IMG/VR virus record: IMGVR_UViG_3300017917_003893
Span: 1 to 64,000 of that record
Source of the DNA: a virus
Direction: 5' to 3' (one strand)
Length of the DNA: 64,000 nucleotides
Shown here piece by piece: positions 9,709 to 57,961 of the stretch. Under the pieces are notes generated by a model. The model was not told the DNA's origin, ran no database searches, and was given only the letters and a program-made list of their open reading frames with translations. Position 1 is the stretch's first letter; the number at the start of each line of letters is the position of its first letter. The position numbers were made by a program, and so were the translations under genes.

Positions 9709-10404
9709 ATGGAGATTAAAATATCAGAAATAGAACAAGTATTCAAGGATGTATTTGAAGAAGAAGAGGGTGTTGTTAACTCTGTTGATACTGTTTATGA
9801 AATGTCAGATGATGAAAAATTTTATAAATTAGTTATATCAATACATGGTTTATCTACACAAGATACCTCTATTATACACACTAAATTTATATTCAAGACA
9901 GACTTAGATAAGAGAAATTTAATTGAAGATACATTCATATATTTATATGATATAAATTGTATTTATCATAAAATAGAGTTTTCAAATATAGTTGATTTGA
10001 AGAAAAAGATAGAAGATATAATAGAGTCTAGAAACTTTGGTGAGGATTTACAAATACTTTCAGACTTCATTGAAGCACCTGCAATGTTCTTAAATTACTA
10101 TATGAGAAGAGATAATATCACAGACTATTCAATTTTTGATGTTGAGTACGAACCAAAGTTTAAAACTACTCCTTGTGATAAAACTACTTTTGATTTTAAA
10201 ATAAACATTAATAATAATTACGATATGGAACTATCTGTTTATAAAGTAGATAGAGTTGATCCAGAAGAGTTAGATACATATAAGTTTCAATTTAAATTTA
10301 TGGATGAAATAGAAACATTTGAATCTGATACAATTAAAAACGTTCACTTCTTTATTGGAGACCATATAGCTAAGATTCTTGATAAAAAATTAAAGAATAA
10401 GTAA
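9709..10404 (+). CDS. Hypothetical acidic protein
   Basis: 231 residues, starting one base after the stop of the nucleotidyltransferase gene and sharing one base with the next start, so clearly an operon member. It is acidic, rich in Asp, Glu, Ile and Lys, with no membrane segment or signal peptide. I recognise no family. Confidence 0.7.
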   Translation: MEIKISEIEQVFKDVFEEEEGVVNSVDTVYEMSDDEKFYKLVISIHGLSTQDTSIIHTKFIFKTDLDKRNLIEDTFIYLYDINCIYHKIEFSNIVDLKKKIEDIIESRNFGEDLQILSDFIEAPAMFLNYYMRRDNITDYSIFDVEYEPKFKTTPCDKTTFDFKININNNYDMELSVYKVDRVDPEELDTYKFQFKFMDEIETFESDTIKNVHFFIGDHIAKILDKKLKNK

Positions 10405-11069
10405 TGAGATTAAGGTATTTTGAGAATTTTGTTAATCATATAAACGAATCTAATGAAGATTTTACTGATTTATCTAAAGAAGAGTTAGATGAGTTACTTA
10501 TTCCTATTGTCGACTTAGGTATCGAGTATTCTTTTACTACACCGAGAGTTATTACGGATGGTGAGTTTTCTGGTTATAAATCAATGAATATACAATTTAA
10601 AAACACCTTTCAAATAGGACCAGCGGGTGGATATACTGAACAAATTATTGATGAGAAATTCTGGGATTTCTTAGACGAGTTAATAGCTCTTAAAAACCGT
10701 TTAGAAAGCACTAGAGTTTCTATTAATACTAACTGGAGACATTACATAATTGTTACTTTTATACAAAAAGCTAAAGTTGAAGGTGATTTATTTACAATAC
10801 AAAAGTTGTATAATGATATGGATTTAAGAACTAATGCTTCAAAGAGTGATTTTACAAATAATATGACTAAGACTTTAGATAAAGAAAATTTAAAAATTAC
10901 TGTTAGATGTGGTGGTACTTTTGATACAGCCTCTTATACTGATAGAAAGTGGAATGGTCTTTTCAGAGGTATAGATTTTTCTAAATTTAATGTAGAAAAA
11001 GAAATTACTGAAGATAGATTTGGTGATAAAACAGCTGTTATTACAATTACTTTGAAAAGTGAATCTTAA
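10404..11069 (+). CDS. Hypothetical protein with capsid-targeting-like N-terminus
   Basis: 221 residues. The N-terminus MRLRYFENFVNHINES fits the recurring basic/aromatic peptide ending in a hydrophobic-x-Glu site, here INE before Ser. The remainder mixes acidic helices and beta-rich segments without a recognised motif. The ATG shares its first base with the preceding TAA. Predicted to be packaged and trimmed by the prohead protease (inference from the N-terminus alone). Confidence 0.72.
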   Translation: MRLRYFENFVNHINESNEDFTDLSKEELDELLIPIVDLGIEYSFTTPRVITDGEFSGYKSMNIQFKNTFQIGPAGGYTEQIIDEKFWDFLDELIALKNRLESTRVSINTNWRHYIIVTFIQKAKVEGDLFTIQKLYNDMDLRTNASKSDFTNNMTKTLDKENLKITVRCGGTFDTASYTDRKWNGLFRGIDFSKFNVEKEITEDRFGDKTAVITITLKSES

Positions 11070-11074
11070 TATTT

Positions 11075-11082
11075 AATATATA
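11075..11082 (+). promoter_or_regulatory. AATATATA late-promoter-like box
   Basis: TTTAATATATAAAATT, 25 nt before the ATG of the fibre-like gene at 11108. Confidence 0.55.
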
Positions 11083-11107
11083 AAATTGATAAAAATAACA
11101 TAATAGA

Positions 11108-12562
11108 ATGTCTAATATATCATTAAAACAAGTACCTGCTTCTTCAGTTCCAACACCTGCTGCTAACTATGTTAGAATATTTAGCAATATAGGAGATGGT
11201 GGTAACTTGTATTTTAAAAATAGTTCAGGTTCTATAGAAACATTAGGTGGATCAACTTATGTTCCTGTTACTGAGGTTACATATACTGAGTTATATAACT
11301 TATATACAACTTCCTCATTTGTACCAGGTGCTTATTATCTAATAACAAATTTTGAATCAATATATAAACAACCAGATTTTTACTTAGATGGACTAATTAA
11401 GCCAAATTTAGTGACTAGAGGTAAGCCACCTGGATGGGGATATCAACCAATTTTAGTTATGGCTATATCTACTACAGCTCTTGCTGTAGATGCTTATCAA
11501 CCAAATATATCAGGTGGTGGTTATTCTGGATTTCATAAGGATAAAATTAAATATGATTTTTTATCTAATCAAACAGAATTTGGTGATTTTACTAAAGGTA
11601 GAATTATAGAAAGAATAGATGAGTTTGGTAATAGAACTGATTATGACCATAGAACAATATTGTTTAAAAGATATCAAAACTATGAAAGAGATACCTCATT
11701 AACAGGTACTATAACTGATTATAATTGTGTTACAGGTGTTGTTACTGGAAATAGTACCTTATTTTCAACTGAGTTATCAATTGGAGATATAATAATTTTA
11801 GATTCTAAAGCTGACTTGGGTTATGATATTGGTTTAAAGGTTAAAACAATTGTTAGTAATACTTCTATGACTGTTGAAGTTGATAGTGCCTATACCGGTG
11901 GTGTTCCAAGTGCTGTTTCATTAACAAACTCAACGACTATAACGCCTATTTCATATACATTTACATTTAAGTCTTTTGATTTTTGGATAGCTTCAGCTAC
12001 TGGTGAATTTAATCAATACAAAGAAGTTTATTTTGGTCAAAGTGATGATAGTGATTATGATGAATATTATACTTTTGCTTCAAATTCTTATGATAATAAA
12101 TTTTCAGAATATTCTTATAATTATTTTATTTCTCATGTTAATACACTAATATTAGCTAATAATGTCTTCATTAATGCTTCTAATAATAATAGGTTTGATG
12201 CTGTTTCTGCTAATAATACATTGTATAGCGCATATGGTAATTTATCAAATCATACCTTTTTTGGAAATGTGTCTTCTGGTGAATTCAATAATAATTTAAT
12301 AAACTCACCTTTTTATAATAATAAAATTGGTAGTGCTATTAATAATACATTCTTTGCTGATTTTATTAATAATTCACTAAATACTTCTTTGTATTTTAGA
12401 TTTAATAACTTTAAGTGTAATGTTAATAACACTAATTTTGTAACAGCTACACATGTTTATTTACCATATAACTGTGATGTATTTAAGAATTCGTTAGCTG
12501 ATGTGAAGTTATCTTATTATAATAATTCAAATTCTTTAACAGTTGATAATATCACTGCATAA
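11108..12562 (+). CDS. Tail fibre/adhesin-like protein with Asn-rich C-terminal repeats
   Basis: 484 residues. The N-terminal 70 residues (ISLKQVPASSVPTPAANYVR...) resemble the attachment segment of phage fibre proteins. The middle contains IERIDEFGNRTDYDHRT, a pattern I associate with adhesin-type proteins of Bacteroidota phages. The last 160 residues are rich in Asn, Phe, Ser and Tyr with short alternating hydrophobic stretches (NNN-F--), consistent with a beta-helix. Likely a secondary fibre or receptor-binding component. Its end overlaps the convergent gene at 12552 by 11 nt. Confidence 0.68.
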   Translation: MSNISLKQVPASSVPTPAANYVRIFSNIGDGGNLYFKNSSGSIETLGGSTYVPVTEVTYTELYNLYTTSSFVPGAYYLITNFESIYKQPDFYLDGLIKPNLVTRGKPPGWGYQPILVMAISTTALAVDAYQPNISGGGYSGFHKDKIKYDFLSNQTEFGDFTKGRIIERIDEFGNRTDYDHRTILFKRYQNYERDTSLTGTITDYNCVTGVVTGNSTLFSTELSIGDIIILDSKADLGYDIGLKVKTIVSNTSMTVEVDSAYTGGVPSAVSLTNSTTITPISYTFTFKSFDFWIASATGEFNQYKEVYFGQSDDSDYDEYYTFASNSYDNKFSEYSYNYFISHVNTLILANNVFINASNNNRFDAVSANNTLYSAYGNLSNHTFFGNVSSGEFNNNLINSPFYNNKIGSAINNTFFADFINNSLNTSLYFRFNNFKCNVNNTNFVTATHVYLPYNCDVFKNSLADVKLSYYNNSNSLTVDNITA

Positions 12563-12821
12563 AGTTAATTATAGTTTCTAAATTTTCTTTATTAAATTCA
12601 CCATTTAAAGGTTTTCCACCAGATTTTAGATATTGGTTGTATAATTCATTATACTCATCTATAGTATAAAATTTATTATCTAGTTCTGATAATATAATAT
12701 TTGTATCGTGAAAGTCTACAGTTTTGTTTTGTAGTCTTGTTTCACCGTATGCTGGACCTATAGGTCCTACTAACTCAGTACCTGATACTTCTTCGTTAAA
12801 TTGTTTGAATGATTTTATCAC
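12552..12821 (-). CDS. Small protein with capsid-targeting-like N-terminus
   Basis: 89 residues starting MIKSFKQFNEEVSG, with a predicted cleavage site at FNE. The mature part would be about 80 residues with no recognised motif. The start overlaps the preceding gene (12818-13273) by 4 nt as ATGA, so the two are coupled. Candidate internal head protein. Confidence 0.68.
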   Translation of the reverse strand: MIKSFKQFNEEVSGTELVGPIGPAYGETRLQNKTVDFHDTNIILSELDNKFYTIDEYNELYNQYLKSGGKPLNGEFNKENLETIINFMQ

Positions 12822-13273
12822 TTTTCTTTTTCTAATTTTTCAAAATATTCATCTTGTTCTTCAAGTGAATATTCATTTCTCTTAGTGTTATATATTAAAT
12901 TATAAAGGAACTTATCATGTAGTTTATGATGCTCATCGTGTACCATTGTTACAGTACAGGTTTCTTCTTCAAAATTGTTTTCAATTTTGATTATTTCCAT
13001 TCCAAATTTTCCATTCTTATCATGTAAATTACATATAACTTTTATTCTTTTTTCTAAAAGTTCTAAAATCTTTGAAAACGTGGAGTTTTTTGACAAATAA
13101 AGAAAGTCTTTCATTTCTTCTTTTTGAGTTGAGTTGTACAACTCTAAGAAACTTTGCTCTCTTTTGGTAAGTTGTTTCTTTCTAGAAACTTTATCCATTA
13201 TTCTTTTTACTTCCATTTGTTTAACAGATTCGTTGAATAGATAATACTTTATAAATCTTTCAATTTTCTTCAT
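12818..13273 (-). CDS. Hypothetical protein with capsid-targeting-like N-terminus
   Basis: 151 residues from ATG 13273. The frame is open 30 codons further upstream, but that stretch contains the promoter-like box and is not protein-like. MKKIERFIKYYLFNES fits the targeting pattern (FNE before Ser). The body is charged, Lys/Glu-rich and probably helical, with no recognised domain. An AATATATA box lies 23 nt upstream. Confidence 0.7.
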   Translation of the reverse strand: MKKIERFIKYYLFNESVKQMEVKRIMDKVSRKKQLTKREQSFLELYNSTQKEEMKDFLYLSKNSTFSKILELLEKRIKVICNLHDKNGKFGMEIIKIENNFEEETCTVTMVHDEHHKLHDKFLYNLIYNTKRNEYSLEEQDEYFEKLEKEK

Positions 13274-13296
13274 ACAAATATAATACTTTCTTCTTT

Positions 13297-13304
13297 TATA
13301 TATT
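13297..13304 (-). promoter_or_regulatory. AATATATA late-promoter-like box
   Basis: CTTAATATATAAAAG on the minus strand, 23 nt before the ATG at 13273. Confidence 0.55.
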
Positions 13305-13323
13305 AAGAAGAATTTGTTTATTT

Positions 13324-13331
13324 TATATATA
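13324..13331 (+). promoter_or_regulatory. TATATATA variant late-promoter-like box
   Basis: TTTTATATATACATT, 23 nt before ATG 13355. This common spacing supports the ATG rather than the TTG at 13352 as the tape measure start. Confidence 0.45.
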
Positions 13332-13354
13332 CATTGTAAAATTATTTTGTTTTG

Positions 13355-26186: not shown

Positions 26187-26558
26187 ATGAAAATAAATAA
26201 CTTTGAAGATTTTATAAATGAAGAGTTCTTCAAGAGAATTTTTAATAATTCCAAGAAAAAAAACAATGTTATTGTTAACAGAGTTGATTCTTGCGTTGAA
26301 AACATATTAAATTTTCTATCAGAGAATGATGTTTATAATTGGAGTGGATTTATAAAAATGTCTCCTTTTGATAGAAGTGTTATTGATAAACTAATAGATA
26401 GTGAGGTTATAACAATGAAGGAGTTAGAAGAAGTTAGATTCAAGTTAAAGTTAGAACTAATGGATAAATCACAATTAATTGATTTTAAAAGTGAATTAGA
26501 ATCGGAAGAAGAGTATGAAAAATGCGCTCTAATTCTTAAAAAAATAAATCAAAAATAA
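26187..26558 (+). CDS. Hypothetical protein with capsid-targeting-like N-terminus
   Basis: 123 residues starting MKINNFEDFINEEFFK, a close match to the T4-style targeting consensus with a site at INE. The remainder is helical and acidic. First of four same-strand genes (26187-28401). Its promoter-like box is exactly 4 nt from the ATG, so the mRNA is probably leaderless. Candidate internal head protein. Confidence 0.72.
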   Translation: MKINNFEDFINEEFFKRIFNNSKKKNNVIVNRVDSCVENILNFLSENDVYNWSGFIKMSPFDRSVIDKLIDSEVITMKELEEVRFKLKLELMDKSQLIDFKSELESEEEYEKCALILKKINQK

Positions 26559-26568: not shown

Positions 26569-27708
26569 ATGAAACACATTAAAAAATTTAATGAAACAAA
26601 AAAAGAAGAAAAGGTTAAAGACCAAGAAGTTCTTTTTACTGTTGATAATCTAATAGATGATAACGAACCATCTATTAAAACTCAATCTGAGGAAGATAAC
26701 GAAAAAGTTCAGAAAGAGTTTAAAAAGTCAATGGATAAAGTTGAAAAGTTTGAGGCTTTTATTGATGTTCATATAGATAATATTGAGAATGTTGAAGTTG
26801 ATTATGACTTTGATGAAGAAGATGAAGAGTTAGATGCCGATTATGAAGAAGATCCTGGTTGTGGTTGTTGTGATGATTGTCAAAGTGAGCCAGGGTGTAA
26901 CTGTGGTTGTGAAGATTGTAAATGTTCAGATATGACCGAAGAGCCAAGCTTAATGTCTGCTTCTGATTTTGTTTCTAATTTATTTTCAGAAAGTCTTAAA
27001 TATCATTTAGATAATAATAAACCTATTACTGAAAATATATTCAGACCTGGTTCAGAAGCTTTTTATCAAGTAATTAAAGAAGCAAGGCAAATGTTTGATT
27101 TAGGTAAAGTTACCCTATGTGATATTGATAGAGATATTTTTGAATCAACTGAGATTGGTAATTTTGCTATGTTCAAAGGTGAATTAGTTCCTTTAGACTT
27201 ACCAATGGAAACTATAGTTGAGACAAATCAGCCAGCATTTTCTATACACGATGTTACTCCTGATTTTAATTATGATGTTATGGGTAAAACAGTTACAAAT
27301 ATTAAACCTTTAACTTGGGTTAAAAACGGTGAAGCATCTTGTATGTCTTTTGAAGGCGAAGTTGATGGACAGACTTGTATGTGTAAATATGATGATGGTC
27401 AAGATGGTTATGTGTTTGAGGCTAAATATCATGGAAAAGAAGTTAAACTAAACTACCCTATGAGAGGTGGTACTAAAAAGTACTATGTTTATGTTAAGTC
27501 AGCAAAGGGTAATGTTAAAAAGATTTCATTTGGTGATGTTCACGGTGGATTAACAGCTAAGGTTAGTGATCCTAAAGCTAGAAAGTCATTTGCTGCTAGA
27601 CATCAATGCCATTTGAAAAAAGATAAAACTAAAGCAGGTTACTGGGCTTGTAGAATTAACAAGTATGGTCATTTGTGGGGTGGAAAAACTTATCCTGGAT
27701 ACTGGTAA
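26569..27708 (+). CDS. Virion-type protein: targeting-like N-terminus, Cys-rich acidic segment, conserved phage C-terminal domain
   Basis: 379 residues. It starts MKHIKKFNETKK (site at FNE). Residues about 83-123 are very acidic, with ten cysteines in pairs (CGCC, CNCGCEDCKC) that could bind metal. The last 90 residues (KKYYVYVKSAKGNVKKISFGD, then ARKSFAARHQC, then AGYWACR) match a C-terminal domain I remember from many T4-like phage virion proteins (DUF5872-like). Function of that domain is not known to me. It is 2 nt from the next gene, also tagged. Predicted packaged protein processed by the prohead protease. Confidence 0.75.
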   Translation: MKHIKKFNETKKEEKVKDQEVLFTVDNLIDDNEPSIKTQSEEDNEKVQKEFKKSMDKVEKFEAFIDVHIDNIENVEVDYDFDEEDEELDADYEEDPGCGCCDDCQSEPGCNCGCEDCKCSDMTEEPSLMSASDFVSNLFSESLKYHLDNNKPITENIFRPGSEAFYQVIKEARQMFDLGKVTLCDIDRDIFESTEIGNFAMFKGELVPLDLPMETIVETNQPAFSIHDVTPDFNYDVMGKTVTNIKPLTWVKNGEASCMSFEGEVDGQTCMCKYDDGQDGYVFEAKYHGKEVKLNYPMRGGTKKYYVYVKSAKGNVKKISFGDVHGGLTAKVSDPKARKSFAARHQCHLKKDKTKAGYWACRINKYGHLWGGKTYPGYW

Positions 27709-27710
27709 TT

Positions 27711-28127
27711 ATGAAACACTTAAAAACATATCAAATATTTGAATCTGTTAATAAAATGTTTGTTAAAGACTTTTTAACAGATTTTGGTACACTTATATCT
27801 CTTAATTTTAGTCAAATAACTAAAATGGGTAAAGATGTTGATGCTACAAAAGAATTAACTCTTATGATGCAACAACTTAGAAAGCCTATAATAAACGGTC
27901 AAAACTATTTTGATTTTCTTAAAGATAATATAAATATTGTTCCTAATAATCCAAAGTTACTCTCTACACTTCTAGGTGTGGTAAGAGATTATCTAATCTA
28001 TATAGAACCGAGAGTTCAAAAATTTGTAACTGATGAACCAGCATCAAATGGTGTTGATTATAAAGAGGCTTGGTTAAAAAGAATTGAAAAAATTAAAAAT
28101 GACTATAAACTAATAGTAAGTCAATAA
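27711..28127 (+). CDS. Hypothetical protein with capsid-targeting-like N-terminus
   Basis: 138 residues from ATG 27711, 2 nt after the previous stop; an in-frame ATG at 27675 lies inside the upstream gene and is rejected. MKHLKTYQIFESVNK closely resembles the T4 internal-protein targeting sequence (MKTYQEF), with a site at FE before Ser. The rest is helical with no known motif. Confidence 0.72.
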   Translation: MKHLKTYQIFESVNKMFVKDFLTDFGTLISLNFSQITKMGKDVDATKELTLMMQQLRKPIINGQNYFDFLKDNINIVPNNPKLLSTLLGVVRDYLIYIEPRVQKFVTDEPASNGVDYKEAWLKRIEKIKNDYKLIVSQ

Positions 28128-36027: not shown

Positions 36028-36582
36028 CTATTTTGATGAGTTACTTGCTATTTTCTTTATGTTATCCATCATATTTTTTTCTATATCTATCATTTTCTTT
36101 TTCAGTGATGATTCAGCATCTGATATTTCTTTTGATAAAGATGCTATTTCAGCTGTTTTAGTTGATATTCTATTAGTTATATCAGTTATTTTAGCACCAA
36201 CTGCTTGTTTAATGCTACTTTCTTTTGATAAACTTAATTCTTGTGTAAAGTCGTCTTTTTTAAGTTTATCTGTAGTTATATCTTTTTGAGTCTTATCAAC
36301 TTTCCTTTTAAGATTAGCAACATGTAAGTAGTCAACTAAAAAGGGATTTCTATCAGTTCCTGCTTTTCCAACTATCTGATCTACTTTAGCTTGTAAATCA
36401 GCATCTGTGCTTGATTTTAGATAAGCATTATCAATTAGTGGCTTTTTAGTATTAAAGTCCACAATTTGTTTTTTTAACTTAGATAACTCTTCTTTAGCCG
36501 TCCTTATATCAGGACTGTCAGTAGATTGAACGTCAAACTCAGCTTCTTCTAAGAAGAGTTTATATGACTTAATATGACCCAT
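36028..36582 (-). CDS. Coiled-coil protein with capsid-targeting-like N-terminus
   Basis: 184 residues starting MGHIKSYKLFLEEAEFD, with a predicted site at LEE before Ala. The rest is charged and helical with Lys/Asp/Ser-rich heptads, a long coiled coil. It shares one base with the stop of the upstream gene (36582), so the two are coupled. Candidate internal or scaffold-associated head protein. Confidence 0.72.
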   Translation of the reverse strand: MGHIKSYKLFLEEAEFDVQSTDSPDIRTAKEELSKLKKQIVDFNTKKPLIDNAYLKSSTDADLQAKVDQIVGKAGTDRNPFLVDYLHVANLKRKVDKTQKDITTDKLKKDDFTQELSLSKESSIKQAVGAKITDITNRISTKTAEIASLSKEISDAESSLKKKMIDIEKNMMDNIKKIASNSSK

Positions 36583-39374
36583 TACTGTTTTTTCATTTCT
36601 GTTTTAGTTATACCGTCAGTTGATGATATTTTTGGAAATCCTCCAATATTATTTATTTGATTTGATATATCTTTATTTAAAACAAACCTAGTTTTACCAG
36701 ATGTAGTTTCAACATCTTTGGTATTTTGATATAAAGTATAACAGCTTTGTATATTAACAACTTCTGGTTTTTCAGATAACGTAGCTTTTGTATTCACATT
36801 ATTTGATTTACCATCATGTTTTGTTAGATGTGTTATGTCATATCCACCACTTAATTTGAATACACCGTCTTTTCCTATTAGATTTTCTATCTTCTTTTTT
36901 GTTGCTTTCAATCTAAAGTCACTTGCTTTCTCAGTTCCCTCTCCTGATAATCTATCTTTATTTAATCTGGGTAAATCTCCTTTTTCAAGTTTATTTGATA
37001 CACCTGATTGACTAATATACTTTTCAAAGAAATAGAAAGTTCTTGAGTATACTATGTATGCTGTATCACCTACTACATCTTGTATGAAGAAGTAGTATAC
37101 TTTACCATCTTTTGTAAGTGCTGAAAAGAAAGTTTTTTTCAAATTATCATTTGATTCAAACTTTATAGGATCTTTTGTGAAAAGTAAATCAACTGTTTTT
37201 ATACTATTGGCATTGCCACTAATTTCTTCAGCTTCTTTTTCACCACCAAATGTTGTATCTTGTGATATTTTATTAGGATCTGATTCTGTATAGCCAAAAT
37301 ATTTATCTAAGAATTTTGCTTGTTGTCCCTTGTCATCTTTGCCTGTTTTATATAGTTCATCACCATCTAGCATATCTGACATAAATTTTCTAAGATTAGA
37401 TCCGGCTTTTTCTATTAGCTCATCACCAACTTTTATTTTAGTTCCAACATTAAAAATAGGTTGATACTTTTTTTCTTTCATTATATCAAGAACTGTATTT
37501 TCCCATTGATTGAATATAGCATTATTTCTATAAGGACCACCTCCTGAACCAGCATTTGCTGGTGTTCCACCTCCAAAAGAGGTATATTCCATAAATGTTT
37601 TATTTGATACTTTACCGCCTGATCTACCAGAAGGTATTACTTGAGTTGTGTGTATTTTATATGCTCTATTAAAACATTTAACTACATCTAATACAGGATC
37701 CATTCCGTTTATTACAATAGAATCTTTCTTTTCTTTCTCAAGTTTATCAAACTTTTCTTTCATTTTAATAACTTCTGTTTTCTCCATAACAAAAGCTTTA
37801 ATATCTATTTTTTTCTTCCAATAGTCTTTAATCTTTTGTGATGTAGTCATAACATCAGGTGCTCCTACTTCATCACTTTTTTCTTTATCTTCTTCAGCTT
37901 CTTTTACTAATTTAATAAAGTTATTATATCTAAACAAAGACGATTCTTTTTTAGCTACAGTGTCAACTTCTTTTTGAGTCTCTTCTTTTTTAGGCTCACT
38001 AGGAACCATTCGCATTATTTGCTTAATAGATTCAACAAAATCTTGTAAAGGTTTAGTTAAGTCACCTAAACCACCGTATAATCCTTCTTTATCAAATTGT
38101 AAAGCTCTTTTAGAAAATCTAGCTATTTTTTCTGCAACTATAATTCTTTTGTTTTTATCAGATATAATCTCAAGACTCTCTTTATATAAAGGATCTTTCT
38201 CTTGTATTGTAGATTTTTTATCTCCAACTAAATATCTGTTTATTTCTGTATAAAGAGATTTTATTTGATTTTTGGCATTTGTATCTACAGACTTAGAAGT
38301 TATGTCATTTATAAAAGCAACATCAACACCTATTCCTTTTTCTTTAGATGATATTAATACTTCAATATCTCTTTTTAATTTTGAAAAAGCTTGAGTAAGA
38401 TGGTCTTCACCAGACTTTATATTTCCTCTATCTTGAGACCCACCAGGTTGATTAGTAGTACCAGGTACTGCTTCAAATATTGAAGATTCCATAACAAGTG
38501 CTAAGCCTGCTGGTAAAGTTTGGTTGTCTTTCGGATATTTTTGAAGTATTTTAGAATTTTTTGTTCTAATATCAGCTAAAGACATTTTTTTCTTATTTAT
38601 ATTTACATCTTTCTGTATTTTTTCAATCGTATCACCTTCTTTAGTTTTATAAGGCTCAATAGATGATGATTTAGCAACTGGTGTAGATGATTGGATTTTA
38701 ACTCTTTTATAAGCGTCTAATATAATACCTAATGATTTTAGGTTTTTAATCATAACTGGATAAAGAGATTCTGATGTTTTCCCTGATTCGGATCCTTTTT
38801 CAGATCCTTCTTCGGATCCTTCTTTGCCTTCACCTTCCTCTTTATCTTTGTCGGCCTCAGATTTACCACCCTCATCATCTTTGAATTGTTCTAAGAACTT
38901 TAGAAATTCTTCTAGTTGACTTATTAAATTTTCCTTATTTTCAAAATCTTCAAAATTCTTAATATCATTTATAGCCGCTCTTGTAAGATTTTTTATCTCA
39001 CCAACATTTGCTCCTTCTTCAACCGCCTTCTGTAAACTATCAATAAATGAGAATACTATAAGTCTTCTATATTCTTTTCTATCCTCTTCTGATAACTCAG
39101 CAGCAGTTGATGTTCCTAATAGTTCGTCAAAGGTGTCTCTTAATCTTCTAGCGACTCCTTTAATTCTAACTAAGTTGGCGCCTATTTTGGCTTTTCTTAT
39201 TGTAGAGTTTATTAATCTTCCTAGTAAAGAATCACCCCAAGGTATATCATTTGCAAATGGACCACTATTTTCAACGTCTTCATTTATTGAATACAAATCA
39301 TCGTATTTTTTGTACTCGTCTATTTTACTGATACTTCTTTTAAGGAATTCTTCTCTGTTATTAAGGTATTTCAT
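36582..39374 (-). CDS. Large internal-type virion protein with LysM-like segment
   Basis: 930 residues from ATG 39374; the TTG at 39395 is less likely because ATG 39374 has the usual 23-nt spacing from the AATATATA box. N-terminus MKYLNNREEFLKRSISKIDE resembles the targeting peptide in extended form, with SINE further on. Residues about 170-205 are Glu/Gly/Ser/Lys low complexity. YKTKEGDTIEKIQK followed by LPAGLALVM (about 245-305) resembles LysM. Near 475-495, FRYNNFIKLVKEAEE looks like a second internal targeting/cleavage motif. The C-terminal half has no known catalytic motif. It may be a processed, head-packaged protein. Confidence 0.68.
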   Translation of the reverse strand: MKYLNNREEFLKRSISKIDEYKKYDDLYSINEDVENSGPFANDIPWGDSLLGRLINSTIRKAKIGANLVRIKGVARRLRDTFDELLGTSTAAELSEEDRKEYRRLIVFSFIDSLQKAVEEGANVGEIKNLTRAAINDIKNFEDFENKENLISQLEEFLKFLEQFKDDEGGKSEADKDKEEGEGKEGSEEGSEKGSESGKTSESLYPVMIKNLKSLGIILDAYKRVKIQSSTPVAKSSSIEPYKTKEGDTIEKIQKDVNINKKKMSLADIRTKNSKILQKYPKDNQTLPAGLALVMESSIFEAVPGTTNQPGGSQDRGNIKSGEDHLTQAFSKLKRDIEVLISSKEKGIGVDVAFINDITSKSVDTNAKNQIKSLYTEINRYLVGDKKSTIQEKDPLYKESLEIISDKNKRIIVAEKIARFSKRALQFDKEGLYGGLGDLTKPLQDFVESIKQIMRMVPSEPKKEETQKEVDTVAKKESSLFRYNNFIKLVKEAEEDKEKSDEVGAPDVMTTSQKIKDYWKKKIDIKAFVMEKTEVIKMKEKFDKLEKEKKDSIVINGMDPVLDVVKCFNRAYKIHTTQVIPSGRSGGKVSNKTFMEYTSFGGGTPANAGSGGGPYRNNAIFNQWENTVLDIMKEKKYQPIFNVGTKIKVGDELIEKAGSNLRKFMSDMLDGDELYKTGKDDKGQQAKFLDKYFGYTESDPNKISQDTTFGGEKEAEEISGNANSIKTVDLLFTKDPIKFESNDNLKKTFFSALTKDGKVYYFFIQDVVGDTAYIVYSRTFYFFEKYISQSGVSNKLEKGDLPRLNKDRLSGEGTEKASDFRLKATKKKIENLIGKDGVFKLSGGYDITHLTKHDGKSNNVNTKATLSEKPEVVNIQSCYTLYQNTKDVETTSGKTRFVLNKDISNQINNIGGFPKISSTDGITKTEMKKQ

Positions 39375-46895: not shown

Positions 46896-47504
46896 ATGAA
46901 GCATATTAGAACATTTGAATCATATCGTGTTAAGAAAAACAGAGAAGAGATAATTAAAGAATCTGTTCTTCAGGTAAACGATATCTACAAAGTAAAGACT
47001 ATGATTGATATTCCTCAGTCATTGATTAACGCTTATGTTAAAAAAGTAAAAGACACAACTGGTAAAAACTTACGTCAATTTTTTGGTGATGTTGACATCG
47101 CTGAAGAAATTGTTAAGTATATCAATATGAATAATCTTGATGTTGAAAAGATTCCTGGTGGTGCTTTAATGGGTGGTGGTCAATCACAGGCTCAAACACA
47201 ACCTCAAGCTCAGCCTCAAGTTCAAGTTGAAGGTGAGACTCAAGCTCAAACACAAGCTCAAACACAAGAAGCTCCTCAAGCTCAACCTCAAGCTCAAACA
47301 CAAGAAGCTCCTCAAGCTCAGGCTCAAACACAAGAAGCTCCTCAAGGAGAATTTGAAGAACCACAAGCTCAAGCTCAAACACAAGAAGCTCCTCAAGCTC
47401 AAGGACAAGCTCAAACACAAGAAGCTCCACAAGCACAAGGTCAAGGTCAGGCTCAAGAAGAGGAAGAAGAAACTGAAGAAGGAGAAGAAGAATTACCGCT
47501 TTAA
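46896..47504 (+). CDS. Capsid-targeting-like N-terminus with long Gln/Ala/Pro repeat tail
   Basis: 202 residues. MKHIRTFESYRVKKNREEII followed by KES fits an extended targeting peptide. Residues 24-97 form a compact domain (QVNDIYKVKTMIDIPQSLIN). From about residue 98, imperfect AQTQEAPQ repeats form a long disordered tail, ending in a run of Glu. It uses CGT arginine codons, suggesting strong expression. No enzyme motif. A packaged internal protein or scaffold partner is plausible. Confidence 0.72.
   Translation: MKHIRTFESYRVKKNREEIIKESVLQVNDIYKVKTMIDIPQSLINAYVKKVKDTTGKNLRQFFGDVDIAEEIVKYINMNNLDVEKIPGGALMGGGQSQAQTQPQAQPQVQVEGETQAQTQAQTQEAPQAQPQAQTQEAPQAQAQTQEAPQGEFEEPQAQAQTQEAPQAQGQAQTQEAPQAQGQGQAQEEEEETEEGEEELPL
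47187..47460 (+). repeat. AQTQEAPQ-coding repeat tract
   Basis: Imperfect tandem units such as CAAACACAAGAAGCTCCT within the gene at 46896-47504. They create long false frames on both strands (Lys/Leu-rich plus, Leu/Ser-rich minus). Confidence 0.85.
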
Positions 47505-47574: not shown

Positions 47575-48186
47575 ATGAGATTCCTTAAAACGTTTGAAAG
47601 TTATGGTAATGAAACATTAATTATTGTTGATGTTCAAAAGTCATTCAAGAAATTCTTTTCGGAAATGTATTTGAATGAGTTGAAAAAGTATTGTAATAAC
47701 TTCCAAAGTGTTTACCAAATATGGGATAACCATATCGATGGTAAAAAAGTGGATAAAGATTATCTATATGATAATACACCAGAGATTCCAATTCATGATG
47801 ACCTTTATCATTTTCCTAATCAAAAAGACTTGATTGAGAAGAGATATAACTATGATGTTGATGCTGATTTTTATAAAAAGATATTAAGTAAAGAAGTTTA
47901 TAAAGAAATTAGTGATAAGGAAGATAAAAAAGAACTTAAAAAAGGCGATATTTTCTCTACTAAAGAAGGTACAATAATAACTTACATTGGTAATAACCAC
48001 GTTTGGTTTCACGTTCCTATCAAATTGTATGAACTATTACAATCATTAAAAGGTAAAGAAGTTACAATAGTTGGTGGTGCTGACTCTGAATGTCTTGAAG
48101 ATATAGTAACAACCGCTGAGAAATTAGGTGTTAAAATTAAAAGAGATTATAAATATATTTATACTGCTAGTAGTTGTCCAATTTAA
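47575..48186 (+). CDS. Isochorismatase-like hydrolase with capsid-targeting-like N-terminus
   Basis: 203 residues. MRFLKTFESYGNE is the targeting-like peptide (site at FE before Ser), directly followed by LIIVDVQKSF with Asp19, EKRYNYD with Lys89 and VGGADSECLEDIVTTAEKLG with Cys173, the Asp-Lys-Cys triad layout of cysteine hydrolases such as nicotinamidases and isochorismatases. Substrate is unknown; NAD metabolism would be a plausible target by family. If packaged, it would act right after injection. The end overlaps the convergent gene by 4 nt. Confidence 0.8.
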   Translation: MRFLKTFESYGNETLIIVDVQKSFKKFFSEMYLNELKKYCNNFQSVYQIWDNHIDGKKVDKDYLYDNTPEIPIHDDLYHFPNQKDLIEKRYNYDVDADFYKKILSKEVYKEISDKEDKKELKKGDIFSTKEGTIITYIGNNHVWFHVPIKLYELLQSLKGKEVTIVGGADSECLEDIVTTAEKLGVKIKRDYKYIYTASSCPI

Positions 48187-48680
48187 CCTTCATCAGGCAT
48201 ATCAAAACAAATTCTTAAAACATCTCCGTCAAATCCAATTGAACATTGTTCAAAATTAGAAAAAACTTGAAACCTTGGAACAATTTCTTCTTGGAGTAAT
48301 TTAAATATTTTCTTAATTTTATTATTATTAGCCATAATAATATCTAAATTGTTTCTTAACTTTTCTAGATTTTCAATCTGATTATCAACTGAATAGTTTA
48401 ATGAAGTATAATATGATTCTATATTTTCTGGACCATCTGTTGGTGGTAAAGCATCTGTTAAATATCTAGCAGTTAAGTATGTTCCTTCTTCATCAATCTC
48501 TTCATCACTTATTTGAGGTATTGTTAATTCGCAGTCATAGAAATAATCTTCATCTGTATAATCATGAAATACACATTGGAAATAATCAGATAATTCCATC
48601 ATAATTTCTTTGAATGTCTCAAAATCACATTCTTCATTTGAAGCCTCATTGAACTTCTTTAGATATACTAACTTTTTCAT
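48183..48680 (-). CDS. Hypothetical acidic protein with capsid-targeting-like N-terminus
   Basis: 165 residues. MKKLVYLKKFNEASNEE contains a site at FNE before Ala. The body is very acidic with no recognised domain. Its ATG overlaps the end of the amidoligase-like gene by 4 nt, so it is translated from the same mRNA; an AATATATA box also lies inside the end of that gene, 27 nt upstream. Confidence 0.7.
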   Translation of the reverse strand: MKKLVYLKKFNEASNEECDFETFKEIMMELSDYFQCVFHDYTDEDYFYDCELTIPQISDEEIDEEGTYLTARYLTDALPPTDGPENIESYYTSLNYSVDNQIENLEKLRNNLDIIMANNNKIKKIFKLLQEEIVPRFQVFSNFEQCSIGFDGDVLRICFDMPDEG

Positions 48681-49768
48681 ATATTACTTATAAATTTATA
48701 TAATTTTTTTATATATTCTCTTCTTTTATATTCTGGATTTGTCATACAATAAACAACAAAAGCAAAATATTTAACTTTTTCTATAAGAACCTCTCTTTCA
48801 ATTATACCACCAGCATATCTAAATTCGCAATAGTTATCAGAAAGCTTTGTTATATTAAATCCAAGATTTTTAAATCCTATTTGATTTACCTTCTTTGTTA
48901 AGAAGCTATTTAATACCTCTTCGGATTCTTCAAGATTATTAATATCAAGTCCTTTGATTATATTTTTTTCTTTATCACTCATTTCTTTAAGATATGGTAT
49001 TAATGATCCGCAAAACTTGTTATTCATTCTCCAAGTCATATCTTTGAATGTGTATGGTGTTGAATCTTTATCAGAAAAGTCATTTAATATTAACAATCCT
49101 TTAATTGGATTCCATTTAACCTTTTGATTGGAACCTAGATTTATATGTATTCCAGTTCTTTCTGAAAAGTGCCAGTAATCCTGTTTTTCTAAATCATTGT
49201 AGAAGTCATTTATCATTTCAATAGATTCTGATAAACTAGGTATATAAGTCTTTGGTTTTATTTCAATTCCTCTTTCAAGAGTTGCATCTCCAACAAAGTC
49301 AATCTTTCTATTCCATTTTCTAACAAAATTAGGCATATGTGTTCTTACCATTCTTTTTAGATATGTATAGTCTTCTTCTATAATAACTGATTTTAATGAG
49401 TTTTTCAAATGAGATACTATTTCTATTTGTCTCTCATCTGTATATTTGCTTATGTCAAATATTCTATCAAATGTGTTTTCATTGACATTTTTAGATTCCA
49501 CTTCATCATATAATGAATATGCTAGATTGAATATTAATTCCTTCTCTGATTTCTTTCTAATTTTAAAGTCTTTAGTTACTGTTTCTAAAACATCTTCAAT
49601 AGTTTCTTCATCTAAATCTTTGTATTTATACTTTAGATTACCTTTGTCTAATGTTTCTATTTCAAACTCAAATGCCACTGTAAAGTAGTTATTTAATTCA
49701 GATTCTATGAATGCTATATCTCTTGGGTTAACCTCTTCAAATAGAGAAAATTTTACTAAGTATCTCAT
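48677..49768 (-). CDS. Amidoligase-like enzyme with capsid-targeting-like N-terminus
   Basis: 363 residues. It starts MRYLVKFSLFEEVNPR (site at FEE). VAFEFEIE (31-38), DFVGDATLERGIEIKP, TGIHINLG and YCEFRYAGG follow the order of the putative amidoligase family (Amidoligase_2, carboxylate-amine ligase fold related to glutamate-cysteine ligase). Such enzymes form amide bonds using ATP; substrate unknown. The combination with a targeting-like N-terminus suggests a packaged enzyme, perhaps acting on host cell wall or proteins (inference). Confidence 0.68.
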   Translation of the reverse strand: MRYLVKFSLFEEVNPRDIAFIESELNNYFTVAFEFEIETLDKGNLKYKYKDLDEETIEDVLETVTKDFKIRKKSEKELIFNLAYSLYDEVESKNVNENTFDRIFDISKYTDERQIEIVSHLKNSLKSVIIEEDYTYLKRMVRTHMPNFVRKWNRKIDFVGDATLERGIEIKPKTYIPSLSESIEMINDFYNDLEKQDYWHFSERTGIHINLGSNQKVKWNPIKGLLILNDFSDKDSTPYTFKDMTWRMNNKFCGSLIPYLKEMSDKEKNIIKGLDINNLEESEEVLNSFLTKKVNQIGFKNLGFNITKLSDNYCEFRYAGGIIEREVLIEKVKYFAFVVYCMTNPEYKRREYIKKLYKFISNI

Positions 49769-53814: not shown

Positions 53815-53828
53815 TATTAAATATTAAT

Positions 53829-53860
53829 AAAAATCCTCAAAGAAATTTGAGGATTTTTTT
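53829..53860 (+). terminator. Hairpin terminator
   Basis: AATCCTCAAA, loop GAAA, TTTGAGGATT and a T7 tract, after the gene ending at 53814. Confidence 0.9.
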
Positions 53861-53877
53861 TATTTTAAATAAACTTA

Positions 53878-53901
53878 CATGTTACATGATTATATAACAT
53901 G
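53878..53901. promoter_or_regulatory. Inverted repeat upstream of the sigma-like gene
   Basis: CATGTTA, ten-base spacer, TAACATG: a perfect 7-bp inverted repeat 52 nt before ATG 53954. It lacks a T-tract and could be an operator. No late-type box precedes this gene. Confidence 0.35.
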
Positions 53902-53953
53902 AAAGGTTAAAGAATTTAATTTTACTAAATTCTTAAAAAATAAGAGCCTATGA

Positions 53954-54319: not shown

Positions 54320-54337
54320 TAAAAAGAACTTTAAAAT

Positions 54338-54366
54338 AAAAAACCCACTCAATGAGTGGGTTTTTT
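54338..54366. terminator. Bidirectional hairpin terminator
   Basis: AAAAAACCCACTC, loop AAT, GAGTGGGTTTTTT; separates the convergent sigma-like and glutamine synthetase genes. Confidence 0.92.
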
Positions 54367-54387
54367 ATTCTTCATCTTCATCTATTT

Positions 54388-55476
54388 TTATGCTTCTGTT
54401 GATACTTCAACTTCACTGTATACTGTTTTAAGCATTCTAAGTGCAACTTGATAAGGGTTGCAATTTGAAGCCGGTCTTCTATCCTCAAAATATCCTTTTC
54501 CTTCAACGATTGCCTGAGCTGGAATTCTTATAGAAGTATCTCTTGTGCTATATCCAAAACTAAACTCGTGAATTCCTGATGTTTCGTGAGCACCTGTTAA
54601 TCTTTGTTCATTATGAAGACCATAAACTTCTATGTGTTTCATATGATTCTTTTCCAATTTAGCCATAGTTTCTTTAATTAAATCAAGACCACCTTCTTCT
54701 CTCATCTCTTTTGATGAAAAATTAACATGACATCCTGTTCCATTCCAGTCACCTTTGATTGGTTTTGGGTGTAGAGAAACGTTTACATTATGTTTTTCAG
54801 CAACTCTATCTAGAATATATCTTGAAATCCATAATTGGTCAGAACCTTCTAAAGCAGTTACTGGTCCAATTTGATATTCCCATTGACCTAATAGAACTTC
54901 AGCGTTAATTCCTGAAATATCTAAACCTATTTCCATACACATATTCATATGCTCTTCAACTATTTCACGTCCAACAACTGTGTCGGCTCCAATTCCACAA
55001 TAGTAATCTCCCTGAGCTCTAGGTGTTTTGTCTATTTGAAATCCTAAAGGTAAACCAATTCCTTCGCCAAATGGCATATGTGGTTTATGAGTTAGAGTAT
55101 ATTCTTGTTCCCATCCAAACCAAGGAAGACTATTTTTGTCACCTTTCTCATCTAGTTTCAATTCATTTAGTTTATTAACTAATGATCTTCTATGATTTGT
55201 TTTATGTGGTGTTCCATCTGGGTTAAGAACTTCACAAAAAACTAATCTATTTGGAAATCCTCTGAATGGATCAGTTACTACAAAAACAGGATTCAAAAGA
55301 CAATCTGTGTTTTTTCCTTTACCAGCTTCAGCCTGTAAAGTTGAACTTCCATCAAATGACCATATTGGATAACTATCTGGGTCATTGGAGTGAATCTCTT
55401 TTGCTATTTTAGTTTTACTTCTTAATCTTTGTGGATTTGATCCATCAAGCCAAATGTACTCTAATTTAATATTCAT
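54388..55476 (-). CDS. Type II glutamine synthetase
   Basis: 362 residues, full length for GSII. IWSFDGSSTLQAEAGKG, WFGWEQEYTL, NAEVLLGQWEYQIGP, GTGCHVNFSS and RLTGAHETSGIHEFSFGYST with TSIRIP are the metal, ammonium and ATP binding motifs in order, so it looks catalytically intact. It converts glutamate and ammonia to glutamine. GSII is found in eukaryotes and in some bacteria including Bacteroidota, so capture from the host is likely. It is an unusual phage gene, probably metabolic reprogramming for nucleotide synthesis. No late-type box upstream. Confidence 0.95.
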   Translation of the reverse strand: MNIKLEYIWLDGSNPQRLRSKTKIAKEIHSNDPDSYPIWSFDGSSTLQAEAGKGKNTDCLLNPVFVVTDPFRGFPNRLVFCEVLNPDGTPHKTNHRRSLVNKLNELKLDEKGDKNSLPWFGWEQEYTLTHKPHMPFGEGIGLPLGFQIDKTPRAQGDYYCGIGADTVVGREIVEEHMNMCMEIGLDISGINAEVLLGQWEYQIGPVTALEGSDQLWISRYILDRVAEKHNVNVSLHPKPIKGDWNGTGCHVNFSSKEMREEGGLDLIKETMAKLEKNHMKHIEVYGLHNEQRLTGAHETSGIHEFSFGYSTRDTSIRIPAQAIVEGKGYFEDRRPASNCNPYQVALRMLKTVYSEVEVSTEA

Positions 55477-55560
55477 ATATGTTGTTTTTTTTTTAATTTT
55501 ATATCATTTACTAAACTTTGTTTATTCGTTTTAATAAAATATTTATCTAAATTTAAAATA

Positions 55561-55860
55561 ATGAATAAGGTACTATTACAACTCTGGGAAGAATCTAATA
55601 ACAATAATGATTTTTTAAGTGATGGTTGTTCTTTACATATAGATTTAACACAAAGAAATAATTATATATCATCTATTTATGGTGATAGAAGTCATAATAG
55701 TGAAGGTTATGATAGAATAGTTGGCGACTGCGTTGAAGTTTTTGTAACTGATAAGTTATATGAGATGATTAAAAATGATAAGAGTGTTAAACTACCAGAG
55801 TCTTCTTTTCAAAATTTATTAACTTTTGAAGATATAATCTATAATAAGTCTATAGTATGA
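55561..55860 (+). CDS. Hypothetical protein
   Basis: 99 residues, acidic (LLQLWEESNNNNDFLSDGCS...). Its stop overlaps the ATG of the next gene in ATGA, so they are cotranslated. No recognised family. The 84 bases upstream are AT-rich without a late-type box. Confidence 0.62.
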   Translation: MNKVLLQLWEESNNNNDFLSDGCSLHIDLTQRNNYISSIYGDRSHNSEGYDRIVGDCVEVFVTDKLYEMIKNDKSVKLPESSFQNLLTFEDIIYNKSIV

Positions 55861-56195
55861 TGTTTTATTTACCCATAATTCTCTTTATTTGGTCAGAGAT
55901 ATACTATGTTTACAATAAGTCTAAATTAGATGTTAGATTTAAAAATAAAGATATTTCAAACTCATCTAAATATGATTTACTCTATTATTTTAGTAGGGTA
56001 TTTTACTACATTTGGTTATCTTTTGGAATTTTTACAAGTCAATCAGATATATTTATCTTTTTATTTATTTTAATACTATTAAAATTACCTTTTTATTTTA
56101 TTAGTAAAAGAGTTTATTTTATATGGAATAATATACTACCTAGTATTTCAGTTATCTTTATGATAATTGCACTTGTTTATTATATTAAAGGTTAA
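55857..56195 (+). CDS. Small membrane protein
   Basis: 112 residues with about four hydrophobic segments (YLPIILFIWSEIYYVY, YLLYYFSRVFYYIWLSFGIF, IFIFLFILILLKLPFYF, ILPSISVIFMIIALVYYI). Probably an inner-membrane protein. Lysis or membrane-exclusion roles are possible but not shown. Its 3' end overlaps the convergent gp4-like gene by 11 nt. Confidence 0.65.
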   Translation: MMFYLPIILFIWSEIYYVYNKSKLDVRFKNKDISNSSKYDLLYYFSRVFYYIWLSFGIFTSQSDIFIFLFILILLKLPFYFISKRVYFIWNNILPSISVIFMIIALVYYIKG

Positions 56196-56712
56196 ACTTT
56201 TTTAAGTGATGTTCTGTTATTATGATAAATTCATAACCTTTTCTATTACACCAATTTATCATAGTTTCCCATTTTTGCTTATTCTTATAAGCCATTTTTA
56301 AGTCATATTCAAAGTTTTTTAATTTCTTCATACCCTTTTCTGGTACTTCTAATTTACCTTCATTTAAGTCTTGTACCATTTTGTATTCTTTAAATGGTTT
56401 AACTTCAACTACAACTTGCTTTAAAACACCTTCAGAGTTTCTCATTTCGTAATAGAAATCTGGATAGTAACAGTGTTCTTTTACTTTTGTATCACCATTT
56501 TCAAAATGTGTCATTTGGTAAGGTATTATTAAACATTCCGCGCCCCACTTTGATATACTCTTGTTATTATCTAACCATGTCATTATTTTTCTTTCCCACG
56601 AGCTTCTGTAATATACACCACCTTGTGTATTTAATTTGATTACTTTGTCTTTGTATTTTGGTATATAGTTACCTTGACTATAATTTGCGTTATTTGGTCT
56701 TGAATTTAACAT
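56185..56712 (-). CDS. 4: Head completion protein (gp4-like nuclease fold)
   Basis: 175 residues. GGVYYRSSWERKIMTWLDNN, KWGAECLIIPY, YYPDFYYEM and VVVEVKPFKEY match T4 gp4 head completion protein, with PD-(D/E)XK acidic residues Glu40, Asp85, Glu103 and Lys105. gp4 acts after packaging, before tail joining. T4 gp4 is about 150 residues. A palindromic TATATATA box is shared with the divergent gene at 56758. Confidence 0.85.
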   Translation of the reverse strand: MLNSRPNNANYSQGNYIPKYKDKVIKLNTQGGVYYRSSWERKIMTWLDNNKSISKWGAECLIIPYQMTHFENGDTKVKEHCYYPDFYYEMRNSEGVLKQVVVEVKPFKEYKMVQDLNEGKLEVPEKGMKKLKNFEYDLKMAYKNKQKWETMINWCNRKGYEFIIITEHHLKKFNL

Positions 56713-56732
56713 CTCTGTAGATTTGTTTCTTT

Positions 56733-56740
56733 TATATATA
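56733..56740. promoter_or_regulatory. Bidirectional TATATATA late-promoter-like box
   Basis: CTTTTATATATAAAAG is a palindrome, 17 nt before ATG 56758 (plus) and 20 nt before ATG 56712 (minus). Confidence 0.45.
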
Positions 56741-56757
56741 AAAGAAAATTTATTTCC

Positions 56758-57453
56758 ATGGGAGAATTAGTTGATAGAATTGGATTAAGAATGTTGGTCG
56801 ATGGTAGTGGTTTAGCTGATAACTTTAAAAATAATACACTATATTTTTATGATAAATATCAAAAATCCGATGAGTTAGTTACAGCTATAGGTATAAATGA
56901 CATACTTCCTGGTATGTTTTATCATTTTCACTATTTAGATAGTTCTAATTGGATGCAATACTCTCCAGTTTTTGTAACAAATTATAAAAAAGTTTCTAAT
57001 AAAATAATAATATTCGGTGTTAATTTTAATTTTATTCCTTTGGAAGTTAGAGCCTATTTATTTGATAAGTTTATGATAGAAGAAAACTTTGAAAAAGAGT
57101 TACCTTTAAAAGTTGATTACAAGGGAATGTATGACGAACTTAAAAAGTATGGATTTGAGTATGCTTTAGTTGAATATAACGCTTCTCAGATTAAATTAGT
57201 TCACAGAATTAAAATGGATGTTGTTCCTAGGTTTTTAATATCATCTCATCCAAAAAATAAATATGATCCGGCTAAATTATTTAGCATATGGCAAGTTAAG
57301 ATAAAAGATAGAGATAAAAGAGACCAAGAGATTATGCAATCAACTATTGATGATTTTTTTGATGTTAAGGATCAAATAAATGAGAAGTATGTTTTACTAA
57401 AAGACCATATTAAAAGAATTCAAGCCAATATGAAAAAATATGGAAATAGATAA
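56758..57453 (+). CDS. Hypothetical virion-associated protein
   Basis: 231 residues. LPGMFYHFHYLDSSNWMQYS and IIIFGVNFNFIPLEVRAYLF resemble a pattern (GLN-HYLP--R---L) I associate with T4-like structural proteins of unknown role. The C-terminal 60 residues are charged and helical. Placement between gp4 and portal genes supports a head or neck role, by context. Confidence 0.6.
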   Translation: MGELVDRIGLRMLVDGSGLADNFKNNTLYFYDKYQKSDELVTAIGINDILPGMFYHFHYLDSSNWMQYSPVFVTNYKKVSNKIIIFGVNFNFIPLEVRAYLFDKFMIEENFEKELPLKVDYKGMYDELKKYGFEYALVEYNASQIKLVHRIKMDVVPRFLISSHPKNKYDPAKLFSIWQVKIKDRDKRDQEIMQSTIDDFFDVKDQINEKYVLLKDHIKRIQANMKKYGNR

Positions 57454-57454
57454 T

Positions 57455-57462
57455 AATATATA
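57455..57462 (+). promoter_or_regulatory. AATATATA late-promoter-like box
   Basis: ATAATAATATATACATT, 25 nt before ATG 57488. Confidence 0.5.
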
Positions 57463-57487
57463 CATTAATAAAAAAACATCATAATAA

Positions 57488-57961
57488 ATGAGACATTTAA
57501 GAAAATTTGAAGAACTTGACTATTCAACATATATGAGTGCTGCTGATAAGATGGCATCTTATGGTCAAACATCTAAAGCTGAAGAGGTTAGAAAACACGC
57601 TCTTTCTATGGCTAGAAGAGTAATTGATGATATGAATTTTGGAATTTTAGTCGGTGGTGTTAGAACTTTTCCTAATGCTAAATTTGAAAATGCTAGAATA
57701 TTTAAATCTGGTAATGCTTGGTCACTTCAAGTAATACTTAAATCTGATGAAAATACACACAGTGTTAACTGTAAAGTTTTAGAGAATGGTGAGATTTCTT
57801 GGGCTGATGGAAATAAGTTTATGGATAGAGGTTCTGTTCTTAAATTTCAACAATTAGTTAAACAACTTGCTAAATTTCAACCAGACTTTTTAGCATTTAT
57901 AAAGGATAATAACTTAACACCTGAAGATCTTAAAGTTGTTTTAAGAACTTTTTATAATTAA
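57488..57961 (+). CDS. Hypothetical protein with capsid-targeting-like N-terminus
   Basis: 157 residues. MRHLRKFEELDYS has the targeting-like pattern with a site at FEE. The rest is mixed alpha/beta with FGILVGGVRTFPNAKFENAR and no known motif. It directly precedes the portal gene, in keeping with a head assembly or internal protein role. Confidence 0.68.
   Translation: MRHLRKFEELDYSTYMSAADKMASYGQTSKAEEVRKHALSMARRVIDDMNFGILVGGVRTFPNAKFENARIFKSGNAWSLQVILKSDENTHSVNCKVLENGEISWADGNKFMDRGSVLKFQQLVKQLAKFQPDFLAFIKDNNLTPEDLKVVLRTFYN

Follow-up and report, generated by a model that had tools for sequence, protein, structure and literature searches.

Background

The internal proteins IPI, IPII and IPIII of bacteriophage T4 are known carriers of a capsid-targeting sequence. 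Residues 4 and 7 (Tyr and Phe) of this T4 tag direct targeting and residues 8 and 10 (Ile and Glu) direct processing; Asp at residue 10 stops processing, and the targeting and processing residues are separable (PMC9026906). IPI enters the host with the DNA (PMC9026906). Here we analyse bases 1-64000 (the window, 64,000 nucleotides) of the 143,336-base IMG/VR contig IMGVR_UViG_3300017917_003893, in which many otherwise unrelated proteins begin with a similar short peptide, referred to below as the tag.

In the Salmonella giant phage SPN3US, head proteins have N-terminal propeptides that a gp21-like protease removes by cutting after Glu, and many of these proteins enter the cell (PMC7411985). 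That system differs from the one described here in that its main propeptides are 111-130 residues long and eight proteins are cleaved, with no short uniform tag on dozens of proteins (PMC7411985). No report of capsid-targeting tags in huge phages was found in the open-access literature, subscription papers lying outside the search.

Al-Shayeb et al. 2020 placed their four largest genomes in the Mahaphage clade, with Bacteroidetes as predicted hosts (PMC7162821). By the grouping of major capsid protein identities, the contig is part of this clade of 634-735 kb phages. The closest matches of its protease and major capsid protein are in the uncultured phages LR745206 (635 kb), LR756502 (642 kb), LR756501/LR756503 (735 kb) and LR756504 (636 kb), and its major capsid protein is 73% identical over its full length to that of LR745206 and 54% to that of LR756501, all other records being far lower.

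The shared N-terminal peptides are very probably T4-type capsid-targeting sequences on an unusually large cargo set, and because they closely resemble the T4 head-loading label, it is probable that many proteins are injected by these phages together with the DNA. What is new here, judged from sequence, is T4-type capsid targeting expanded about 20-fold or more and a scaffold composed of tag-like repeats.

Results

The tag in the contig and in related phages

The consensus of the tag is M-(K/R/I)-x-(I/L)-K-x-(F/Y)-x-x-F, with Glu within 0-2 residues and then Ser, Asn, Ala or Glu; equivalently, it is a hydrophobic residue, two residues, an aromatic, 0 to 2 residues and Glu, followed by one of the same four residues. 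Genes of the contig and its relatives were called with our own simple hexamer-based caller, not Prodigal. A first position model was trained on 27 tags of this contig and a second on 107 LR745206 tags, for the cargo of which no homolog could be detected in this contig; neither was trained on T4 data, and control levels (99% and 99.9%) were set from 718 internal-Met sites. Among the 107 LR745206 tags, 97% have the aromatic at position 0 (which the model requires), 57% have Phe at +3 and 93% have Ile or Leu at -3.

Under the second model, 28 of the 162 proteins of the whole contig score above the 99.9% level of the internal-Met controls and 37 above the 99% level. Conversely, the first model passes 111 of 781 LR745206 proteins lacking a homolog in this contig at the 1% level, against 7.8 expected. 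The following counts use one fixed threshold, at about the 0.1% false-positive level, and are given as pairs for the first and second model, with about 0.2 to 4 expected. Tags stand at start codons in 24 and 29 of 160 proteins of this contig (0.2-0.9 expected; internal-Met controls negative). They number 76 and 138 of 913 in LR745206, on which the second model was itself trained, and 60 and 83 of 962 in LR756501, about 2 being expected in each of these complete genomes, and 9 and 30 of 442 in part of LR756500. Four and 4 of 231 T4 proteins pass, as do 3 and 4 of 96 in an 80-kb part of P-SSM2. The megaphage tag was not found with these models in PTm1 (0 and 2 of 290), nor in Lak-B1 (part) or crAss001, which gave 0 matches. 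A Flavobacterium chromosome segment, the bacterial control, showed no tag excess (1 of 351 against 0.2-0.5 expected).

The position-weight models confirm that the N-terminal peptide of the original prediction is shared across the contig and its relatives. The motif is commoner than in host-like proteins, and the expectation that tagged proteins would far exceed those of T4 is borne out by about 60-140 per complete genome against 4. The observation is confirmed and, if anything, was too modest.

Fourteen starts in the window had been listed as tagged. All open real reading frames, and 11 pass the independent, LR745206-trained model, eight above the 99.9% level and three (8943, 10404 and 47575) above the 99% level. 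The start at 39374 on the minus strand found no support, with no fit to the tag motif in this model. Two further minus-strand starts are recognised by eye only: 13273 is borderline in the model, with a core ..YLFNES, and 48680 fails the fixed-spacing model, with a core ..LKKFNEA, both cores having a longer spacing. The tagged proteins are as follows.

8943..9707, plus strand: weakly tagged protein MKLVKYFEFN..., 254 residues; above the 99% level; phrog_36119 (unknown function)
10404..11069, plus strand: tagged protein MRLRYFENFVNHINES..., 221 residues; just above the 99% level
12552..12821, minus strand: tagged protein (M)IKSFKQFNEEV..., 89 residues, GTG start; above the 99.9% level
12818..13273, minus strand: probable tagged protein MKKIERFIKYYLFNES..., 151 residues, longer spacer; 2% level, motif by eye
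26187..26558, plus strand: tagged protein MKINNFEDFINEE..., 123 residues; above the 99.9% level
26569..27708, plus strand: tagged protein MKHIKKFNETK..., 379 residues; above the 99.9% level; phrog_7595 (unknown function)
27711..28127, plus strand: tagged protein MKHLKTYQIFES..., 138 residues; above the 99.9% level
36028..36582, minus strand: tagged protein MGHIKSYKLFLEEA..., 184 residues; above the 99.9% level, top score of the whole contig
46896..47504, plus strand: tagged protein MKHIRTFESY..., 202 residues, repetitive Gln/Ala-rich C-terminus; above the 99.9% level
47575..48186, plus strand: tagged protein MRFLKTFESY..., 203 residues; above the 99% level
48183..48680, minus strand: probable tagged protein MKKLVYLKKFNEA..., 165 residues, longer spacer; by eye
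48677..49768, minus strand: tagged protein MRYLVKFSLFEEV..., 363 residues; above the 99.9% level
57488..57961, plus strand: tagged protein MRHLRKFEELDYSTY..., 157 residues; above the 99.9% level

The start MKHIR(T/K)(F/Y)E of the 46896 protein is preserved across 71 homologs. Glu8 of the 47575 protein does not vary among 23 homologs, and Lys5 and the aromatic at position 7 hardly do; the next six residues are variable, with an indel. In a structure model of this protein, residues 1-14 are disordered and a folded domain comes after. A fold search with it returned nothing significant, the best related candidate being an isochorismatase-type amidase (probability 0.38); the protein is possibly a cysteine-hydrolase-like enzyme.

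Comparison with T4

When the second model was run on T4, the top four proteins were, in order, gp61.1, IPIII, IPII and IPI; for three given proteins all to reach the top four among 237 by chance has a probability of about 2 in a million. That T4 internal proteins carry such a peptide is thereby upheld, IPI-III ranking 2nd-4th of about 230 under a model blind to T4. The T4 protein that best matches the megaphage tag, above IPI-III, is gp61.1 (NC_000866, 18966-19130, minus strand), which has 54 residues and begins MKTFKEFIKED.... Sequences similar to it occur in 1352 phage records, and gp61.1 is predicted to be an unrecognised capsid-targeted protein.

As in T4 capsid targeting, the peptide is N-terminal, spans about 10-16 residues, stands on otherwise unrelated proteins and has two aromatics three apart with Glu shortly after, in a phage whose portal, protease and capsid protein are of T4 type. 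Unlike T4, about 30 tagged proteins are encoded on 143 kb here, against three known (four by the model) in T4; Glu lies 0-2 residues after the second aromatic, with Ser or Asn preferred after it; and the scaffold consists of tag-like repeats and is joined to the protease in one gene. The T4-type capsid-targeting reading offered in the original prediction is thus supported by the position, length and key residues of the peptide, by the T4-type head module and by a Glu-Ser pattern common to the head proteins.

A common pattern at putative cleavage sites

For a test of the acidic residue, 301 cargo-cluster representatives were picked without using Glu. The first acidic residue after the aromatic core was Glu in 221 and Asp in 54 (backgrounds 8.1% and 7.0%), and Ser followed it in 35%, against a background of 6.8%. 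The pattern hydrophobic-Asn-Glu-(Ser/Ala/Asn) occurs 6 times in the protease-scaffold and capsid protein of this phage, against 0.5 expected, and five relatives show the enrichment too; among the first 25 residues of the other LR745206 proteins there are 48 occurrences against 7.0 expected (p=3e-24). The Asp version of the pattern is not enriched in head proteins or N-termini. The capsid protein carries WMSE(Y/M)AE(Y/F)HSINENAY, in which INEN is invariant across 94 homologs and falls in the N-terminal part of the protein, where the end of a T4-type propeptide would be expected. We infer that the same protease cuts the tags and the capsid protein, which at the level of sequence have one protease site in common.

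Head module and scaffold repeats

Judged by its matches, the head module is of T4 type, including a gp21-family protease. Its features in the window are:

58063..59781, plus strand: T4-type portal protein (gp20 family); PF07230, E=1.5e-57
62725..64000, continuing to 64869 of the contig, plus strand: prohead protease fused to scaffold, 714 residues; phrog_207 (head maturation protease), E=4e-34
63583..64000, plus strand: scaffold repeats from residue 287 onward, past the window end; tandem 14-residue units Y-S-E-Y-(I/L)-A-E-N-L-D-K-N-I-A, resembling the T4 tag YQEFIAEA

The protease motifs GEFDHP and VSSRAAG align with GELNHP and VSSRGLG of T4 gp21, and its Peptidase_S77 match falls under the Pfam cut-off. 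The major capsid protein matches phrog_138 (major head protein; E=1e-27). A gp21-like protease had been placed within the window; it does start there, and its gene runs beyond the window end.

The original prediction overlooked the tandem tag-like copies in the scaffold, as it did lineage-specific tag variants in other phages. The 714-residue product contains about 13 tandem YSEY(I/L)AENLDKNIA units, and 153 scaffold gene copies (IMG/VR loci, some overlapping) contain 10-17, mostly 12-13. Conservation is 91% for Y1, 96% for Y4, 90% for Ile/Leu/Val at position 5 and 100% for Glu7, the Glu and hydrophobic classes having belonged to the search pattern. No other protein of these phages exceeds 3 such sites. 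The repeat preserves four positions (aromatic, aromatic, Ile/Leu, Glu), the same ones on which the T4 tag depends for targeting and processing. In a structure model the repeats lie in a long helix (residues 236-421, confidence mostly about 52-79).

ORF-300 of the Tenacibaculum phage PTm1 is similarly a protease fused to a scaffold rich in hydrophobic-x-Glu sites. The T4 scaffold gp22 is also rich in such sites, but T4 protease and scaffold are separate genes. The 10-17 tandem 14-residue near-copies of the T4 tag set the Mahaphage scaffold apart from both; the repeat was not found in PTm1 by the same pattern, and it is eroded in LR756500.

Cargo

Tagged members occur in 128 separate cargo clusters with several distinct Pfam folds, so the description of the tagged proteins as otherwise unrelated stands. 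Most cargo is without annotation. Annotated cargo includes NFACT-R, NUDIX, methyltransferase, PQ-loop, ankyrin and a peptidase family in this contig, and SMODS-associated NUDIX, NUDIX, T4-type RNA ligase, poly(A)-polymerase-like, nucleotide cyclase and GH108 proteins in LR745206, which also has a tagged 2H phosphoesterase (weak match to anti-CBASS Acb1) fused to an exonuclease. This cargo resembles a set of tools for counter-defence and RNA repair, which would be in keeping with delivery alongside the DNA.

Discussion

A mechanism can be proposed in which the product of the protease gene, whose long helical scaffold part holds about 13 repeat copies, supplies the docking sites. A cargo tag would mimic one repeat, its two aromatics matching Y1 and Y4, and so join the prohead scaffold core. 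The protease would then cut after Glu in the tags, the scaffold repeats and the major capsid protein (SINE|NAY), which would free the cargo inside the head and clear the scaffold, and the cargo would exit with the DNA at infection. That the cargo tags imitate one scaffold repeat unit is an idea we mildly favour. We likewise lean, with little more than even confidence, towards the wider proposal that roughly a hundred proteins, some 10% of the Mahaphage proteome and including counter-defence-like nucleotide-signal and RNA-repair enzymes, are capsid-loaded through scaffold-repeat mimics, that the scaffold offers a row of identical sites for docking and cleavage, and that the injected set can be read from the genome.

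Several results weigh against these proposals. In a tag-only profile, single repeat sites score no higher than random internal sites, and the same pattern finds no such repeat in T4's own scaffold. Because random internal sites outscore the repeats in that profile, it is the copy number and register of the repeats that carry the repeat argument; this, together with the lack of repeats in the T4 scaffold, is why we favour scaffold mimicry only mildly. The structure model of the protease domain is of low confidence and too poor for fold comparison. Some tag matches are chance look-alikes, such as the portal protein (MASYNQF), and in ortholog pairs the tag residues overall are no more conserved than the rest of the protein. 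Finally, about a third of the tags have Glu directly after the aromatic (TFE-S, KYE-S). The residue two before Glu is mostly Phe, Ile or Leu; in these short tags it is Thr or Lys, so they misfit the T4 rule of hydrophobic-x-Glu.

The short tags bear on the possibility of a mixed population, in which long tags (F-(I/L)-x-E or F-N-E, then S) would truly be capsid-targeting and the short type (KTFES, KTYES) would be targeted but uncut there, or would mark something else, so that far fewer proteins would be packaged than are tagged. Glu positions relative to the aromatic do form separate peaks at +1, +2 and +4 with a dip at +3, and a tag that targets uncut would agree with the separable residues of T4 (PMC9026906). 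However, the long and short types have the same N-terminal half and both keep Glu within families, as the invariant Glu8 of the short-type 47575 protein illustrates, and we consider a mixed population unlikely.

The tag might instead direct proteins elsewhere, for instance to a replication compartment or to a membrane-bound site of assembly, its likeness to T4 being partly convergent. The third of tags that lack a T4-type hydrophobic-x-Glu site could be so explained, and cargo enzymes such as the RNA ligase and the poly(A)-polymerase-like protein would also be sensible inside the cell. Set against this are the ranking of the T4 internal proteins by a T4-blind model and the Glu-Ser site common to the phage's own protease-scaffold and capsid protein, which together make another destination quite improbable.

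Ordinary homology within one diverged paralogous family, rather than a portable tag, would also give a shared start. Many LR745206 tagged proteins do resemble small acidic paralogs that share a (D/E)-I-F-x-E-L-x-D-x-G core (e.g. 37041-37391 and 625486-625935), apparently an expanded family of unknown function. The spread of the tag over separate cargo clusters and differing folds nevertheless makes a single family very improbable, as does the existence of both tagged and untagged orthologs, for example at 57488, where one homolog begins at MNYSTY, and at 67127. A single family was rejected, since cargo as unrelated as NUDIX, RNA-ligase and methyltransferase proteins, among others, contradicts it.

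A nucleotide-level signal (e.g. for translation initiation) or a recently copied DNA repeat is scarcely credible and was rejected: the tag does sit at the start codon in an A/T-rich genome, and same-residue codon identity in this contig, with its few tags, is somewhat above expectation (0.699 against 0.596), but between LR745206 tags it equals that expected from codon usage (0.585 against 0.590; 6688 comparisons), so the conserved feature is a peptide, and the aromatic and Glu positions are kept as amino acids, Asp not replacing Glu.

If T4-type capsid targeting is the correct reading, the packaged and injected proteins of the largest known, uncultured phages could be listed from sequence, and many hypothetical proteins would be assigned a site and moment of action, first in the head and then in the host as the DNA arrives. 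How the T4 tag recognises the prohead core would have a concrete and testable explanation in the scaffold repeats. The cargo list would hint at counter-defence proteins made in advance, and natural tags would be available for loading proteins into phage heads.

Tags and motifs of other phages

In Sphingomonas phage PAU, about 20 proteins start MKT(L/I)xxLYE(A/S)xLNE, several of them in a row beside head genes (JQ362498, e.g. 100248-113735), and one, gp154, is annotated 'internal capsid protein'. PAU resembles the megaphages in having a common N-terminal peptide that ends in Glu-Ala/Ser, and its tags resemble the KLNES site of the PAU capsid protein; the PAU tag differs in sequence, and the megaphage model does not detect it. 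In Lak-B1 the N-terminal motif is another one, containing LYES and LNE. It may be that each lineage with a T4-type head uses a tag of its own; the phages looked at in detail were PAU and Lak-B1.

LR756501 has a second short motif, DPYGEExW(D/E), with 109 copies in 94 of 962 proteins. All copies are in frame, with many synonymous DNA forms (loci L387-L389, L050-L057 and L390-L415), and in 41 of the 94 proteins the motif lies within 10 residues of the C-terminus. It occurs together with the N-terminal tag in 31 proteins, against 8.9 expected (p=9e-12). The motif is absent from all other genomes checked in this analysis, and a literature search gave no relevant report.

Partial extra matches to the major capsid protein lie at 207506 and 291422 in LR745206 and at 542566, 145657 and 497461 in LR756501, which suggests capsid-protein paralogs additional to the main copy in both phages. 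In the window, an RNase R/II-like gene (60266-62143, minus strand) was seen by eye between the portal and protease genes. At the contig end, a very long reading frame of about 1590 residues (window 3-4781) opens with SSGSSGTSGSSG repeats.

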